From Desulfovibrio ferrophilus (lineage in GTDB: Bacteria; Desulfobacterota; Desulfovibrionia; Desulfovibrionales; Desulfovibrionaceae), in assembly GCF_003966735.1 (NCBI RefSeq), contig NZ_AP017378.1, forward strand, positions 2,438,905 through 2,502,904: a stretch of DNA of 64,000 bases, given 5' to 3'. A program made the translations under genes and the position numbers. The notes below the pieces were generated by a model. The model ran no database searches. It saw only the letters and a list, made by a program, of their open reading frames with translations, and was not told where the DNA came from. The first letter of the stretch is position 1. Each line of letters starts with the position of its first letter. This document shows, piece after piece, positions 14,120 through 20,467 of the stretch.

Positions 14120-14147
14120 TTGACACAACAATATCCCCCCATATAAT
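14120..14147 (+). promoter_or_regulatory. Near-consensus sigma-70 promoter of the MarR-RND operon
   Basis: TTGACA (14120-14125) and TATAAT (14142-14147) are separated by 16 bases, 36 bases before the MarR start codon. Both hexamers match the consensus exactly. The expected start site is near 14154. Confidence 0.75.
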
Positions 14148-14182
14148 TACGGGTACAACTATTTCACCTACAGGAATTGCAC

Positions 14183-14641
14183 ATGCTAGATAATAGATTT
14201 TCCCTCGATGAATCAGTGGCATACGCCATTGCCCGCACAGGCAAAGCCATCAAATTCGAACTCCGTCGCTATTTCCGCGAGGCCGGCATCGATATCACCT
14301 CCGAGCAATACGCCCTGCTCTGCCGACTCTGGGAAAAGGAAGGCCGCTCGCAAAAGGAACTGGCTGAGTGCTCCTTCAAGGACACCGCCAACATCACCCG
14401 CATGATCGATGTTCTCGAAGGCAAAGGTGTTGTCTACCGCGAGCGCGACCCCAAGGATCGTCGCACCTACAGAATTTACCTGACCCAGCGAGGCAAAGAG
14501 CTGAAAGAGACCGTCACACCCATCGTCCTGGCCCAGGGTGAACGCGCCTATTCCTGCCTCACCGAAAAGGAACAGCGCAGTTTACTAGACATGCTCAACA
14601 GACTGTACAACCATATCAGCTATATGCGCGACAACGGCTAG
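14183..14641 (+). CDS. MarR-family transcriptional regulator
   Basis: The 152-residue protein has the winged helix of the MarR family: the recognition region QKELAECSFKDTANITRMIDVLEGKG (about residues 55-80) and the wing RERDPKDRRTYRIYLT with the conserved DxR core. MarR proteins repress adjacent efflux genes until a ligand binds. The ATG at 14183 has AGGA seven bases upstream. It is the first gene of a four-gene operon with an RND adaptor, an RND pump and a deoxyhypusine-synthase-like protein, so it probably represses its own operon. Confidence 0.88.
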   Translation: MLDNRFSLDESVAYAIARTGKAIKFELRRYFREAGIDITSEQYALLCRLWEKEGRSQKELAECSFKDTANITRMIDVLEGKGVVYRERDPKDRRTYRIYLTQRGKELKETVTPIVLAQGERAYSCLTEKEQRSLLDMLNRLYNHISYMRDNG

Positions 14642-14660
14642 TCGTCGTGCTGGGGGAGAT

Positions 14661-15725
14661 ATGAAGACTTCTATTATTACGTTGATCACGCTGATCGTCC
14701 TGACCCTGCCCACAGGGACCGTCGCACAGGACAAACCTCAGGGGCCGCCGCCAACACTGATCGAAACCGCCAAATCCGGCGCTGACAGCGTGGCTCCCCG
14801 GTCCGATTTCGTAGGTACCGTGTACTACCCGGAAGTCTCGGAAGTCGCCTCGGAAGTCGCAGGCCGGGTGCTGAATGTCCATTTCGAGGAAGGCCGCCGA
14901 GTGAATGCCGGAGCTGATCTGGTCACCATGGACACGGCCATTGCCGTCAAGCATCTCATCGCGGCACAGGGCTACCTGGACGAAGCCAAGGCAGCACAAG
15001 AGCTCGCGAAGATCGAGCTCAAGCGTCGCGAAGAACTGATCAAAAGCGGCTCCATCTCCACTCAGGAGTTCGACAACGCCTTTTACGCCCTACAGGAAGT
15101 CCAGAACAAGGCTCGTGCTCTGGAAGCCGTAGCCGACAGGCTGCAACTCGAAATTACAAAATCCAGAGTTCCATCACCGTTTGCAGGCATCGTGCTGGAA
15201 CGCAAAGTGGAACGCGGCGAATGGATCGCTGCCGGAGCCGTGGTCGCAACCGTGGCTCTGGACGAGGCCATGGACGTCATCATCAATGTCCCCGAAACCG
15301 TCCTGCCCTTTATCAGTGTCGACCAGACCATCGAAGTCACCATCGGGGGCAAGGCGACGTCGGGCAAGATCTTCGCCATCATTCCCCGAGGAGATGTGGG
15401 GACACGCACCTTCCCGATCAAGATTCGCATCCCCGGCACCCACTTTGCCCAAGGCATGCAGGCCACGGCCCATCTGCCCGTGGGTGCCAAGGTCAAGTCC
15501 GTCATTGTACCCCGCGATGCAGTAACCATCCTGCGCGGCCAGCCCATGGTCTTTGCCGCGGTCGACGGCAAGGCCCAGATGATCCCCGTCAACGTGGTGG
15601 CCTACCTGGGCCTTTTAGCCGCTGTAAACGGACCGGGCCTCGCAGAAGGCATGGACCTGGTTATCAAAGGCAACGAACGACTGTACCCCGGCGCACCGGT
15701 CCGCACGGCCGGAGCCAAACAGTAG
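14661..15725 (+). CDS. RND efflux periplasmic adaptor (HlyD/MFP family)
   Basis: The 354-residue protein has an N-terminal signal sequence (TSIITLITLIVLTLPTGTVAQ). It has the lipoyl-like half motifs (AGRVLNVHFEEGRRVNAGADLVTMD; later FAGIVLERKVERGEWIAAGAVV), a helical hairpin between them (about 95-155), and beta-barrel and membrane-proximal regions after it. It bridges the inner-membrane pump to an outer-membrane channel, which is not encoded here. GGGGGAG precedes the ATG. It is cotranscribed with the MarR regulator and the pump. Confidence 0.9.
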   Translation: MKTSIITLITLIVLTLPTGTVAQDKPQGPPPTLIETAKSGADSVAPRSDFVGTVYYPEVSEVASEVAGRVLNVHFEEGRRVNAGADLVTMDTAIAVKHLIAAQGYLDEAKAAQELAKIELKRREELIKSGSISTQEFDNAFYALQEVQNKARALEAVADRLQLEITKSRVPSPFAGIVLERKVERGEWIAAGAVVATVALDEAMDVIINVPETVLPFISVDQTIEVTIGGKATSGKIFAIIPRGDVGTRTFPIKIRIPGTHFAQGMQATAHLPVGAKVKSVIVPRDAVTILRGQPMVFAAVDGKAQMIPVNVVAYLGLLAAVNGPGLAEGMDLVIKGNERLYPGAPVRTAGAKQ

Positions 15726-15770
15726 ACACTCTCGCCGAGCCGCATCCTTGAGGTGCGGGTGGAGCGTTCC

Positions 15771-18700
15771 ATGGATATCATCCGGTCTTCCATCGACAAG
15801 CCTGTCACAGTGCTGGTGGGCATCATCCTGATCGTCTTGTTCGGGCTCATTGGCCTGTTCGGATTGCCTTATCAGTTGACCCCCTCTGTCACAGAACCTG
15901 AAATCACGGTAACGACGACTTGGTCCGGGGCCACGCCCTACGAGATCGAACGGGATATCATCGAAGAACAGGAGGATGTCCTCAAGGGCATCCCGGGCCT
16001 GAAGGAGATGGATAGCACCTCCAAGAACTCCAGCGGCGAACTCACCCTGAAGTTCAAGATCGGCACCGATTCCGATGATGCCCTGTTGAGGGTTTCCAAC
16101 AAGTTGAACGAGGTACCGTCCTATCCGGCCACTGCCGACAAGCCGGTGATCACGGCCACGGGTTCTGCCGCCTCGCCGGTAATCTGGATCGTGCTCAAGG
16201 CTCTGCCCGACAACAAGCGTCCCATTGCAAGCTACAAGACCCTCTTCGAGGACCGGGTGCGGCAACATCTGGAACGTGTGGAAGGCGTCGCCGACCTGTT
16301 CATCGGCGGCGGCACAGAGCAGGAAATGCACGTCATCGTCGACCCCGCCAAGCTGGCTGCACACGGGCTGACCATCCCCGACCTGATCGGTGTCCTGCAG
16401 ACAGAAAATATCAATATTTCTGCTGGTAATATGAGCCTGGGCAGCCACGAATACCGCATCCGTTCCGTGGGAGAATTCAAATCCCCGGAACAGATCGAGG
16501 CCGTGGTTATCCGCTCCACGGGCCAACAACGCGTGACCGTGGCCGATGTGGGTCGGGCGGAATTCGGTTTTGAACGCCCCGTCTCGGCCATGATGCACAA
16601 CAACGAACCTGGGATCGCCATTGGTGTAAAACCGGAGACTGGCGCCAATATTCTGGAAATGACCGACCGGGTCCATGAGGTCGTGAAAGAACTGAATAGC
16701 GGGATGCTCAAGGAGAACGGCATCCGCATGGACTGGACCTATGATCAGCGCCCCTACATCAATGGTGCCATCGGTCTGGTTCAACAGAATATCATCGTCG
16801 GCAGCATCCTGGCCGTGACCATCCTGATCATCTTTCTGCGCAGCCTGTCGTCCACCATCATCGTGGCCGTGGCCATCCCCATCTCCATTATTGGCACCTT
16901 CATTTTCATGAGTCTGTTCGGGCGCAACCTGAACGTGGTCTCCCTGGCAGGTATCTCCTTTGCCGTGGGCATGCTCGTGGACAACGCCATCGTGGTCCTG
17001 GAAAATATCGACCGCCACCGCAAGCAGCTGGGAAAACGTGCGGCCCAGGCCGCCTATGACGGCACAAGAGAAGTGTGGGGAGCGGTGCTGGCCTCCACCC
17101 TGACCACCGTGGCGGTATTTCTGCCCGTCGTCTTCATTGAGGAAGAAGCGGGACAGCTGTTCAAGGATATCGCCATCGCCGTAACCTGCGCAGTGAGCAT
17201 TTCCATGATCGTCTCCATTTCCGTGATTCCCATGTTCGCCAAACAGCTTTTCAGCCTGGCGGAACGACGGAAAAACGGAAAGGAATTCGAACTGCGCATA
17301 TTGAAACCTCTGACCGGGCTGGGCACACGCATTTCCAATAGCGTCATGGGCCTTGTCCAGACCTGTCTGAAAAGCACAGGCACCCGTCTGGCCACCATTC
17401 TGTTGCTTACCGGACTTGCCGTCGGCTCCTCCTGGCTCTTCATGCCCAAGATGGAATACCTGCCTCAGGGCAACCGCAATATGCTGCTCTCGGTCCTGAT
17501 TCCGCCTCCGGGCATGTCCGTCAATGAACGAACGGACTGGGGCAACCGCATCTTCGGCATGGCCGACCCGTTCCTGGGACAGGATGAAGTCAATGGCCTG
17601 CCTGGCATCCGCAACCTGTTCTATGTGGGCACTCCGGGCTTCAATATCTTCGGCGTCATTTCATCCCAGGAACAAAGAGCCAGAGAGTTGCTCGGCCCCA
17701 TGATGGGCTGGTCCAACTCCATTCCAGGAGTCTTCGGATTCAGCTTCCAGGCCGGTATCTTCCAGAACCAGATCGGCGGTGACCGGACCATTGACGTGGA
17801 CCTGATCGGGTCCGATCTGCCCACAATGGCCGCCGCCGCACAGACCCTGTTCCTGACCATCCCCAAAGCCATGGCAGGGGCCCAGGTCCGTCCGGTGCCA
17901 TCCTTTGAGATGACCTTTCCGGAAATCCGCCTTGCGCCCTACCGAGACAGGCTCAAGGCCACCGGGCTGACTTCACAGGACCTCGGCATTTCCACTGATG
18001 TCCTCATGGACGGCCGCAAGGTCGGAGACTTCAAGGAAGAAGGACAGCCTTCCATCGATCTGGTCCTCATGGCCTCGGAGCAGAAGATTTCCACTCCTGA
18101 AGATCTGTACGGAGCACTTCTGTCCACTCCAGACGGCAGGCTGCTGCCCATCTCCTCGCTTGCCGGCCTGACCAGAACAACTGGCATCAACGAGATTCGC
18201 CACCTGGAGCGCAACAGAACCTTCACCCTGCAGGTCACCCCTCCCGAAACCATGCCCCTTGAAGAAGCCATGGAACTCATTCAGGACAGCATCATCCCGG
18301 ACCTCGAGGCCAAAGGCGCACTTCAGGGGATGAAGACCCAGCTTTCGGGCGCGGCAGACAAGCTGACCGTCACCCGTCAGGCCCTGCAGTGGAACTTCAT
18401 CCTGGCCGTGGTCATCATCTACCTGCTGATGTCCTCACTGTTCGGGAACTTCTTCTACCCACTGATCATCTTGTTCACGGTGCCCCTGGCGGCGGCGGGT
18501 GGGTTCATCGGCCTGAAGTTGGAGAATCTTCTGCTCACCACACAGCCCCTTGATGTGCTGACCATGCTGGGTTTCGTTATCCTCATCGGTGTCGTGGTCA
18601 ACAACGCCATCCTCATCGTGCACCAATCCCTGAACAACATCCGCGAAGGCGGCATGGACCACAAGGAAGCCGTGCTGGAATCCGTCCGTACCCGCTTGCG

Positions 18701-18917
18701 CCCGATCTACATGAGCGCCATGACCTCCATCTTCGGCATGCTGCCTCTGGCGGTATGGCCCGGTCCGGGCTCGGAATTGTACCGCGGGCTCGGTGCAGTC
18801 ATCCTCGGCGGGTTGGCCCTTTCCACGGTCTTCACCGTGTTTGTCATCCCGTCGCTGCTCATGTTCTTCATCGGCATGGAGAAAAAGGGAACCCCGTCCA
18901 CCGCTACTCAAACGTAA
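15771..18917 (+). CDS. RND-family efflux pump (AcrB/MdtB-like)
   Basis: From the ATG at 15771 the protein has 1048 residues, the normal length for an RND pump. It has TM1 near the N-terminus, a first large periplasmic loop and a TM2-6 bundle that includes the proton-relay region VGMLVDNAIVVLEN. A second half follows with its own periplasmic loop and a TM8-12 bundle (GVVVNNAILIVHQSLNNIREGG). RND pumps export hydrophobic compounds driven by proton influx. The GTG at 15753 is an alternative start, but GTGGAG is well spaced before the ATG. It follows the adaptor by about 45 bases. The substrate is unknown. Confidence 0.92.
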   Translation: MDIIRSSIDKPVTVLVGIILIVLFGLIGLFGLPYQLTPSVTEPEITVTTTWSGATPYEIERDIIEEQEDVLKGIPGLKEMDSTSKNSSGELTLKFKIGTDSDDALLRVSNKLNEVPSYPATADKPVITATGSAASPVIWIVLKALPDNKRPIASYKTLFEDRVRQHLERVEGVADLFIGGGTEQEMHVIVDPAKLAAHGLTIPDLIGVLQTENINISAGNMSLGSHEYRIRSVGEFKSPEQIEAVVIRSTGQQRVTVADVGRAEFGFERPVSAMMHNNEPGIAIGVKPETGANILEMTDRVHEVVKELNSGMLKENGIRMDWTYDQRPYINGAIGLVQQNIIVGSILAVTILIIFLRSLSSTIIVAVAIPISIIGTFIFMSLFGRNLNVVSLAGISFAVGMLVDNAIVVLENIDRHRKQLGKRAAQAAYDGTREVWGAVLASTLTTVAVFLPVVFIEEEAGQLFKDIAIAVTCAVSISMIVSISVIPMFAKQLFSLAERRKNGKEFELRILKPLTGLGTRISNSVMGLVQTCLKSTGTRLATILLLTGLAVGSSWLFMPKMEYLPQGNRNMLLSVLIPPPGMSVNERTDWGNRIFGMADPFLGQDEVNGLPGIRNLFYVGTPGFNIFGVISSQEQRARELLGPMMGWSNSIPGVFGFSFQAGIFQNQIGGDRTIDVDLIGSDLPTMAAAAQTLFLTIPKAMAGAQVRPVPSFEMTFPEIRLAPYRDRLKATGLTSQDLGISTDVLMDGRKVGDFKEEGQPSIDLVLMASEQKISTPEDLYGALLSTPDGRLLPISSLAGLTRTTGINEIRHLERNRTFTLQVTPPETMPLEEAMELIQDSIIPDLEAKGALQGMKTQLSGAADKLTVTRQALQWNFILAVVIIYLLMSSLFGNFFYPLIILFTVPLAAAGGFIGLKLENLLLTTQPLDVLTMLGFVILIGVVVNNAILIVHQSLNNIREGGMDHKEAVLESVRTRLRPIYMSAMTSIFGMLPLAVWPGPGSELYRGLGAVILGGLALSTVFTVFVIPSLLMFFIGMEKKGTPSTATQT

Positions 18918-18926
18918 GGAGCCCTG

Positions 18927-19907
18927 ATGACCGCCATCCGTGCCTTCATGGAAGAGCATTTCAAACACTTCAACGCCCGCGAAACCCTGGACGCGGCAAA
19001 GGGGTGGTGCGATCTGCTTGATGGTGGCGGTCAGATGTTCCTGGCCATGGCAGGCGCCATGAGCACGGCGGAAATCGGCATTTCCCTGGCCCGAATGATA
19101 CGCCAGGGCAAGGTACACGCCATCTCCTGCACCGCTGCCAATCTGGAAGAAGACATCTTCAACCTCTTTGCCGGCAATGAATACAAAATCCTGCCCGAAT
19201 ACAGAGACCTGACTCCGCAGGATGAAGTCGCTCTGCGCGACAGTGGGCTGAATCGCGTCACCGACACCTGCATCCCGGAAACCGTGATGAAGGAGATCGA
19301 GGACCACATTGTCCAGATGTGGACCGAAGCGGCGAGCAGGGGAGAAGCGAAATTTCCCCACCAATTCCTGAATGACGTCCTCGATATTCCTGGCATAGAG
19401 GATCGTTTCCAGCTTCCGCGAGAGCGCTCTTGGGTCCTTGCCGCCAAGGAAATGAGCATCCCCATCTACACTCCGGGCTGGGAAGACTCCACTCTGGGCA
19501 ATATCTACACTGCCGAAGTCATGCTCGGGAATATCCCGAACCACAATGGTGTCAAACGGGGAACCCAGCAATTGGAGCATCTGGCAGGATGGTATAAGAA
19601 ACGAGCCGATGCGGAGATCCCCGTGGGGTTTTTCCAGATCGGTGGTGGCATTTCGGGAGATTTCTCCATCTGCGTCGTGCCCATGCTCATTCAGGACTGC
19701 TACCTGGAAGACACTCCCTACTGGGCCTACTTTGCCCAGATCGGTGACTCCACGACCTCATACGGGTCATACTCCGGCGCGCCGCCCAATGAAAAGATCA
19801 CCTGGCACAAGCTGGCCCCCGACACCCCTCGATTCATGATCAATTCCGACGCCAGCATTGTGGCACCGTTAATCTTCACCTACGTACTTGAAGATTCCTC
19901 GTCTTAG
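18927..19907 (+). CDS. Deoxyhypusine-synthase-family protein
   Basis: The 326-residue protein matches the deoxyhypusine synthase fold: GGGQMFLAMAGAMSTAEIGI at the N-terminus, PIYTPGWEDSTLGN, IGGGISGDFS in the NAD-binding region and ITWHKL with a lysine (295) at the position of the eukaryotic catalytic Lys. The KHH of the eukaryotic enzyme after GGG is replaced by GDF. Eukaryotic members transfer a butylamine group from spermidine to eIF5A; bacteria lack that target, so this enzyme probably makes a polyamine or acts on another acceptor. AAGGAGCCCTG precedes the ATG and it follows the RND pump by nine bases. Its last four bases overlap the end of cheD. Confidence 0.85.
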   Translation: MTAIRAFMEEHFKHFNARETLDAAKGWCDLLDGGGQMFLAMAGAMSTAEIGISLARMIRQGKVHAISCTAANLEEDIFNLFAGNEYKILPEYRDLTPQDEVALRDSGLNRVTDTCIPETVMKEIEDHIVQMWTEAASRGEAKFPHQFLNDVLDIPGIEDRFQLPRERSWVLAAKEMSIPIYTPGWEDSTLGNIYTAEVMLGNIPNHNGVKRGTQQLEHLAGWYKKRADAEIPVGFFQIGGGISGDFSICVVPMLIQDCYLEDTPYWAYFAQIGDSTTSYGSYSGAPPNEKITWHKLAPDTPRFMINSDASIVAPLIFTYVLEDSSS

Positions 19908-20467
19908 AATAAAGACGAATCCAGATCGCCAGCCTCGGCGGACACGGGCCTGACCCAGACTTCACCTGTGGCTGTCAGGAAAAACACCTTGCGTCCGCGC
20001 CTGCCGAGCACATCCTCGGCCATGACCTTCAGCCCATGCTTGGCCAGGGAGTCGCGTGCCGCACTCACGTTCTTGCGCCCGACATCGACGATATCACGCA
20101 CGGCATCCTTGCGTTCGGGGTCAATGGTGAATCCCCCCCCGAACAGCTTCACGTCCAGATCATGCGCTTTGATGCCCAATTTGCCGAAACGAACCATGAT
20201 TTCATCCACGGCCACATCCACATATTTACAAGACCTTTTTTCATTCAAATAACCGCAGCAAATCGGTAACATGGCATGAAAGATGGCGGCCGCAGACGAT
20301 ACAGGATGATAGAACGTCGCGCTGACACACGAACCTAGCACCGTGGTAATCATCGCAGGCCTGCGCGTAAAAATGCACTCTCCAATACGTAAATGCTCAA
20401 TGGGATAGCCTTGCTTTGCATATTGCTCCGGGCTGGTGATGGGGGGTGGGGAACCGGCTGATTTCAT
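19904..20467 (-). CDS. cheD: Chemoreceptor glutamine deamidase CheD
   Basis: CheD deamidates glutamines on chemoreceptors and partners CheC in adaptation. The 187-residue protein has the catalytic triad by spacing: Thr41 and Cys47 (TTVLGSCVSATFY) and His64 (IFHAMLP), then KLFGGGFT. The spacing equals that known for the family (Thr-6-Cys-17-His). It is convergent with the deoxyhypusine-like gene and overlaps it by four bases. No other che gene lies beside it, but a chemoreceptor is encoded at 46285-48300. Confidence 0.92.
   Translation of the reverse strand: MKSAGSPPPITSPEQYAKQGYPIEHLRIGECIFTRRPAMITTVLGSCVSATFYHPVSSAAAIFHAMLPICCGYLNEKRSCKYVDVAVDEIMVRFGKLGIKAHDLDVKLFGGGFTIDPERKDAVRDIVDVGRKNVSAARDSLAKHGLKVMAEDVLGRRGRKVFFLTATGEVWVRPVSAEAGDLDSSLF

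Follow-up and report, generated by a model that had tools for sequence, protein, structure and literature searches.

What does a gene of the deoxyhypusine synthase (DHS) family do at the end of an operon that encodes a MarR-family regulator and an RND efflux pump? This question is raised by a 64,000-nucleotide stretch of the Desulfovibrio ferrophilus genome (contig NZ_AP017378.1; hereafter the window), in which such a gene occupies positions 18927-19907 of the plus strand. A first-pass annotation had proposed a link between polyamine chemistry and efflux, with the enzyme either making the substrate that the pump exports or modifying a component. We arrive, with moderate confidence, at a different answer: the gene encodes a cytosolic, NAD-dependent DHS-fold aminobutyl-transferase that joins small amines, and it has been set under MarR control in this species without being a conserved part of the pump. 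Clade A, as we call the broad branch to which this ordinary enzyme belongs, lies within a known superfamily.

The window protein matches the DHS profile PF01916 with 128.5 bits (cut-off 27) over profile positions 11-287 of 288, which places it in the superfamily, and its gene is the only PF01916 gene of the 3.72 Mb genome. An AlphaFold2 model built from 60 alignment rows (mean predicted local distance difference test score 89, with residues 275-284 below 50) superposes on human DHS with a VIA Z score of 27.9 over 286 residues at 2.6 Å, and Foldseek returned an E-value of 1.1e-14, as expected of a DHS fold. After the DHS entries, the listed fold matches continue with AgrE, through its C-terminal part (6lrh, Z 17.1, 211 residues); this is a link of fold only. 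As the first-pass annotation had noted, the catalytic lysine is kept within a TWHKL motif; it is K295 (human K329), and it is invariant in all 60 rows. Also retained are the residues aligned to human E136, E137, D238, E323, W327 and D342, while the positions of human D243, H288 and D316 hold N, D (D245) and Y (Y282), respectively. We take His288 and Asp316 to belong to the spermidine pocket of DHS, and the window protein has neither. In two haloarchaeal DHS rows the D316 position is L and the D243 position N. Part of the human residue numbering used here is that of PMC10981699. Against the curated DHS model TIGR00321 the window protein scored 83.5 bits, far below the cut-off of 304.25. The enzyme is probably active and of polyamine type.

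Clade A proteins have about 320 residues and share only about 25% identity with the order's remaining DHS homologues, which form clade B. We sampled clade A more widely through the best 80 of at least 566 relatives in named genomes (54-74% identity), which belong to Planctomycetota, Bacteroidota, Chlamydiota, Myxococcota, Acidobacteriota, Cyanobacteriota and others. Within the host's own family the clade is carried by 39 of 288 genomes, and in the order 28 of 59 genomes, the window genome included, hold DHS-family genes (clade A in 14, clade B in 19 and both in 5). The change of KHH to GDF after the GGG motif, which had been singled out earlier, is correct relative to human DHS, where GGG-VV-KHH aligns with GGG-IS-GDF of the window protein, but it is the ordinary state of the clade: among 90 other clade-A rows the three positions are G in 89, D in 90 and F in 90, ruling out a lesion. 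Moreover, the window protein looks constrained despite its long branch (0.59, versus 0.028 and 0.046 for the nearest rows, in a quick tree with support 92), because it matches 108 of the 109 positions that are at least 95% conserved in 108 other clade-A rows.

The gene context of these relatives points to polyamine synthesis. At 13 of the 80 named loci (L054, L065, L067, L069, L071, L073, L075, L076, L079, L082, L084, L093 and L096) the clade-A gene adjoins speA and/or an agmatinase gene, with a nearest gap of at most 118 bases, in tandem at 12 loci and convergently at L079; the window gene itself lacks such a neighbour. These loci span at least five phyla (Chlamydiota, with 7 of the 13, Myxococcota, Planctomycetota, Acidobacteriota and Melainabacteria), and since 67 of the 80 loci offer 1 kb or more of sequence on each flank, 13 is a lower bound. 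An agmatinase gene is the neighbour, or one of the neighbours, at nine of the 80. Two candidates were dropped from this analysis: a decarboxylase of 417 residues at L111, first grouped with SpeA, because of its length and because it lies 2,026 bases away, and an antisense reading frame of the DHS gene that had initially been scored as a conserved neighbour (cluster 3). In clade B, an agmatinase-family gene lies no more than 0.5 kb from the DHS homologue in 8 of 19 genomes (G035, G037, G039, G040, G041, G048, G052 and G057).

Genome content agrees with this context. The gene for carboxynorspermidine/carboxyspermidine decarboxylase, nspC, scored over its cut-off in 1 of the order's 28 genomes that have a DHS-family gene, versus 24 of the 31 without one (Fisher P = 4e-9, uncorrected for kinship), such that the two are almost mutually exclusive in the order, the window genome being the exception. 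Among 25 named clade-A genomes, nspC was over its cut-off in none and speA in 12, and in 21 of them, including Rhodopirellula baltica, the clade-A gene is the sole DHS homologue over cut-off. Bacterial DHS homologues of the SpeY type make homospermidine, according to PMC10407285 and PMC9992855, and homospermidine has been reported in several Planctomycetes, Pirellulaceae among them (PMC4334474 and PMC12254169). A literature search for homospermidine in Hymenobacter, Pontibacter or Rufibacter yielded no usable paper.

Because of the speA and agmatinase context, the exclusion of nspC, the activity of SpeY and the homospermidine of Pirellulaceae, the product of clade A would most likely be a homospermidine-type triamine, made by an enzyme distinct from SpeY. 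By analogy with DHS and SpeY, NAD would take a hydride from the amine donor, the resulting butylimine would be carried on K295, an acceptor amine would receive the butyl group and NADH would then reduce the product. The enzyme would thereby form homospermidine or a similar triamine by joining putrescine to putrescine or to spermidine, and would not act on a protein lysine. Bacteria are not known to have eIF5A, the protein that DHS modifies. The acceptor had on first annotation been called unknown, which overlooks SpeY and CdmS, both of which take small amines as acceptors (PMC10407285, PMC9992855 and PMC10981699).

Several observations weigh against assigning homospermidine synthesis to clade A. 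The window protein fell short of every NCBIfam cut-off, with 96.3 bits against the SpeY homospermidine synthase model NF001980 (cut-off 450), and none of ten other DHS proteins scanned (seven of clade A, three of clade B) reached a curated cut-off. The host already holds a spermidine pathway: SpeA, a carboxynorspermidine-synthase-like dehydrogenase (422 bits, below the cut-off of 800), NspC and agmatinase are clustered about 0.2 Mb from the operon. For nine of the order's 14 clade-A genomes (G005, G009, G010, G014, G025, G038, G043, G047 and G055), no source of putrescine was found among SpeA, agmatinase, SpeD and OKR decarboxylase. Five of the 14 also hold clade B, and the cyanobacterium Moorena has a curated-type SpeY gene (L188, 520 bits) adjoining speA together with a separate clade-A gene (L092); because the two kinds co-occur in these genomes, clade A may not duplicate the function of SpeY. 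Finally, the predicted pocket departs from SpeY at the E137 position and from DHS at the H288 (D) and D316 (Y) positions, and given these differences the substrate of clade A may differ from those of both. As a separate observation, four genomes from a single genus of the order (L120-L123) have argS located between a clade-A and a clade-B gene, the two being separated by about 6-13 kb.

How, then, is the enzyme connected to the pump? Four open reading frames run, in the places first annotated, head to tail on the plus strand, separated by gaps of 19, 27 and 9 bases: a MarR-family regulator (14183-14641; PF01047, 57.8 bits), an RND periplasmic adaptor, or membrane-fusion protein (14661-15725; HlyD_D23 PF16576, 65.2 bits; TIGR01730, 177.7 bits with a cut-off of 94.9), an RND efflux permease (15753-18917; ACR_tran PF00873, 667.9 bits) and the DHS-family gene. 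The regulator gene starts at an ATG at 14183, with an in-frame TTG further 5' at 14177. Upstream, the TTGACA/TATAAT promoter claimed earlier is seen as a sequence match on the plus strand (14120-14147, with the hexamers at 14120 and 14142 and a 16-base spacer) and agrees with all 12 consensus positions of a sigma-70-type site. A scan of the region gave 3 promoter-like sites versus 2.5 expected by chance, and this was the only one to match at 12 of 12 positions; in a species of the same genus (G001) the -35 element is conserved and the -10 element reads GATAGT. The RND and DHS genes are likely to be translationally coupled, to judge from the RND stop codon, which continues into the DHS gene's ribosome-binding site (TAAGGAG; TAAGGAGCCCTGATG). 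In the window genome the DHS-family gene is probably co-transcribed with the pump and, lying at the operon end, is probably controlled by MarR. A convergent CheD-like gene on the minus strand (19904-20467; PF03975, 81.3 bits) overlaps the DHS stop by 4 bases and served as the right-hand marker for comparison with empty sites.

Such a comparison was provided by G001, whose genome is 99% complete. It holds EamA, MarR (91% identical), adaptor (74%), RND (87%) and CheD genes in the same order and has no PF01916 gene: CheD directly follows the RND gene, and the site of the DHS gene consists of about 220 bases without similarity. The idea that this gap preserves traces of a former DHS gene was rejected, the best local match being weak (E 0.071) and on the opposite strand. 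Ten further RND orthologue loci (58-64% identity, L144-L153) also had no DHS gene. Conversely, no RND gene was found, even at E 0.01, in the flanks of 132 other clade-A loci, many of which are second copies from the same genomes and whose flanks cover 1.5-8 kb, shorter at contig ends; among 134 loci only two showed RND similarity, and both are the window genome itself. One adaptor-like match (E 1e-4) occurred at L058. Literature searches on bacterial DHS homologues, on homospermidine in Bacteroidota and Planctomycetota and on RND systems with spermidine or MarR, covering titles, abstract openings and passages (including some of PMC10219603 and PMC10119275), brought up nothing recognisable as clade A with an RND operon. 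The empty site in the same genus and the lack of RND neighbours at the other clade-A loci rule out a conserved pairing of pump and enzyme, and the gene order check that had been proposed for the efflux link thus went against it. What stands of that link is a probably active polyamine-type enzyme that is probably co-transcribed with the pump; a functional tie to efflux finds no support beyond this genome.

A shared function of pump and enzyme is therefore unlikely as a general rule, because no relative examined shows the pairing. Within the window species a partnership is possible, if improbable: the pump might export the polyamine that the enzyme makes, or the polyamine might shield the cell from the same stress, with MarR inducing both. 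The nine-base spacing, the shared promoter, the likely translational coupling and the constraint on the enzyme would fit such a partnership, yet the operon persists without the enzyme in the same genus and at ten further loci, no other clade-A gene examined has a pump beside it, and a single case cannot be told from chance placement.

By our preferred reading, the gene would have come to the operon end, and so under MarR control, in this species, and this may reflect either gain here or loss in the same-genus species. The quick tree groups the window gene with two Desulfohalobiaceae-type rows, apart from the copies of its own family, a placement that fits either transfer or old differential loss. 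Comparison of GC content gave no sign of foreign composition (0.56 for the gene, 0.57 for the window), the surroundings of the gene showed only short, weak repeats as possible insertion marks, a search of 50,697 phage records returned no match, and a plasmid search returned only distant haloarchaeal DHS. A deeper tree, which spanned both clades together with archaeal DHS, had branches of 3-10 changes per column and was not used for ancestry between clades. We also observed two haloarchaeal plasmids (L191 and L192), one of them typed as conjugative, with near-identical DHS genes beside a uroporphyrinogen-III synthase gene.

Other chemistries can be envisaged for the enzyme. Like the caldomycin synthase CdmS, it might couple agmatine or another amine to form a guanidinopolyamine, and at four loci (L071, L076, L084 and L093) speA is adjacent and no agmatinase was seen in the locus, such that agmatine could be the direct substrate. 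The agmatinase genes adjoining clade A at nine loci argue against this, as does a score of 62.3 against model PRK02492 (cut-off 500), and we regard such coupling as unlikely. We assign a similarly low probability to clade A being a third functional kind of bacterial DHS-fold enzyme, marked by a DHS-like glutamate and an Asp/Tyr pocket, which would make a triamine new to the clade or modify a bacterial protein, and would here be wired by MarR to efflux so that both switch on together. A purely protein-modifying role, in which the aminobutyl group would end up on a lysine of some bacterial protein, such as EF-P or a membrane component, in parallel with the action of DHS on eIF5A, appears quite doubtful: clade A keeps the glutamate aligned to human E137, shares N192 with the two haloarchaeal DHS rows, both unlike clade B, and in some genomes occurs together with SpeY-like enzymes, but the speA and agmatinase operons and the exclusion of the spermidine route point to small-molecule synthesis, and few or no rows retain the residues of H288 and D316. 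Very improbable is a recently captured gene drifting to inactivity, which the long branch might suggest and which the intact frame and the conserved positions, catalytic lysine included, contradict.

Many of the genomes examined, from Planctomycetota, Bacteroidota and other groups, have no DHS homologue other than clade A, yet no curated model that we tried names this clade, and literature searches on bacterial DHS homologues turned up no characterisation of it. If clade A is indeed the homospermidine synthase of these genomes, the last step of their polyamine pathway would be filled. The efflux context, an arrangement of one species, offers a natural test of MarR control over a polyamine enzyme.

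Among known systems, SpeY (NF001980/PRK00770; Anabaena work cited in PMC10407285 and PMC9992855) shares with the window protein the PF01916 fold, the catalytic lysine and the active-site Trp and Glu; operons with speA or agmatinase genes are seen for some clade-A relatives but not for the window gene. SpeY differs in its overall sequence (about 25% identity, as clade B) and in its pocket, where the E137 position is E in clade A and H in all 20 clade-B rows and in curated-type cyanobacterial SpeY, the H288 position is N in SpeY and D in clade A, and the D316 position is L and Y, respectively. DHS itself (human 1DHS/6XXJ, archaeal 8PUT/7CMC) shares the whole-chain fold (Z of about 27) and the K329, E137, D238, E323, W327 and D342 positions, whereas the H288 and D316 positions are replaced in the window protein and identity is 18%. 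CdmS of Thermus (PMC10981699) is also a bacterial DHS homologue that acts on small amines, and the D243 and D316 positions are replaced in both proteins, by F and L in CdmS and by N and Y in the window protein. Finally, the operon has the regulator, adaptor and permease order of MarR-regulated RND operons, which is conserved in the same-genus species, and differs from them in carrying a polyamine-type enzyme as its fourth gene, an arrangement seen only here among the loci examined.

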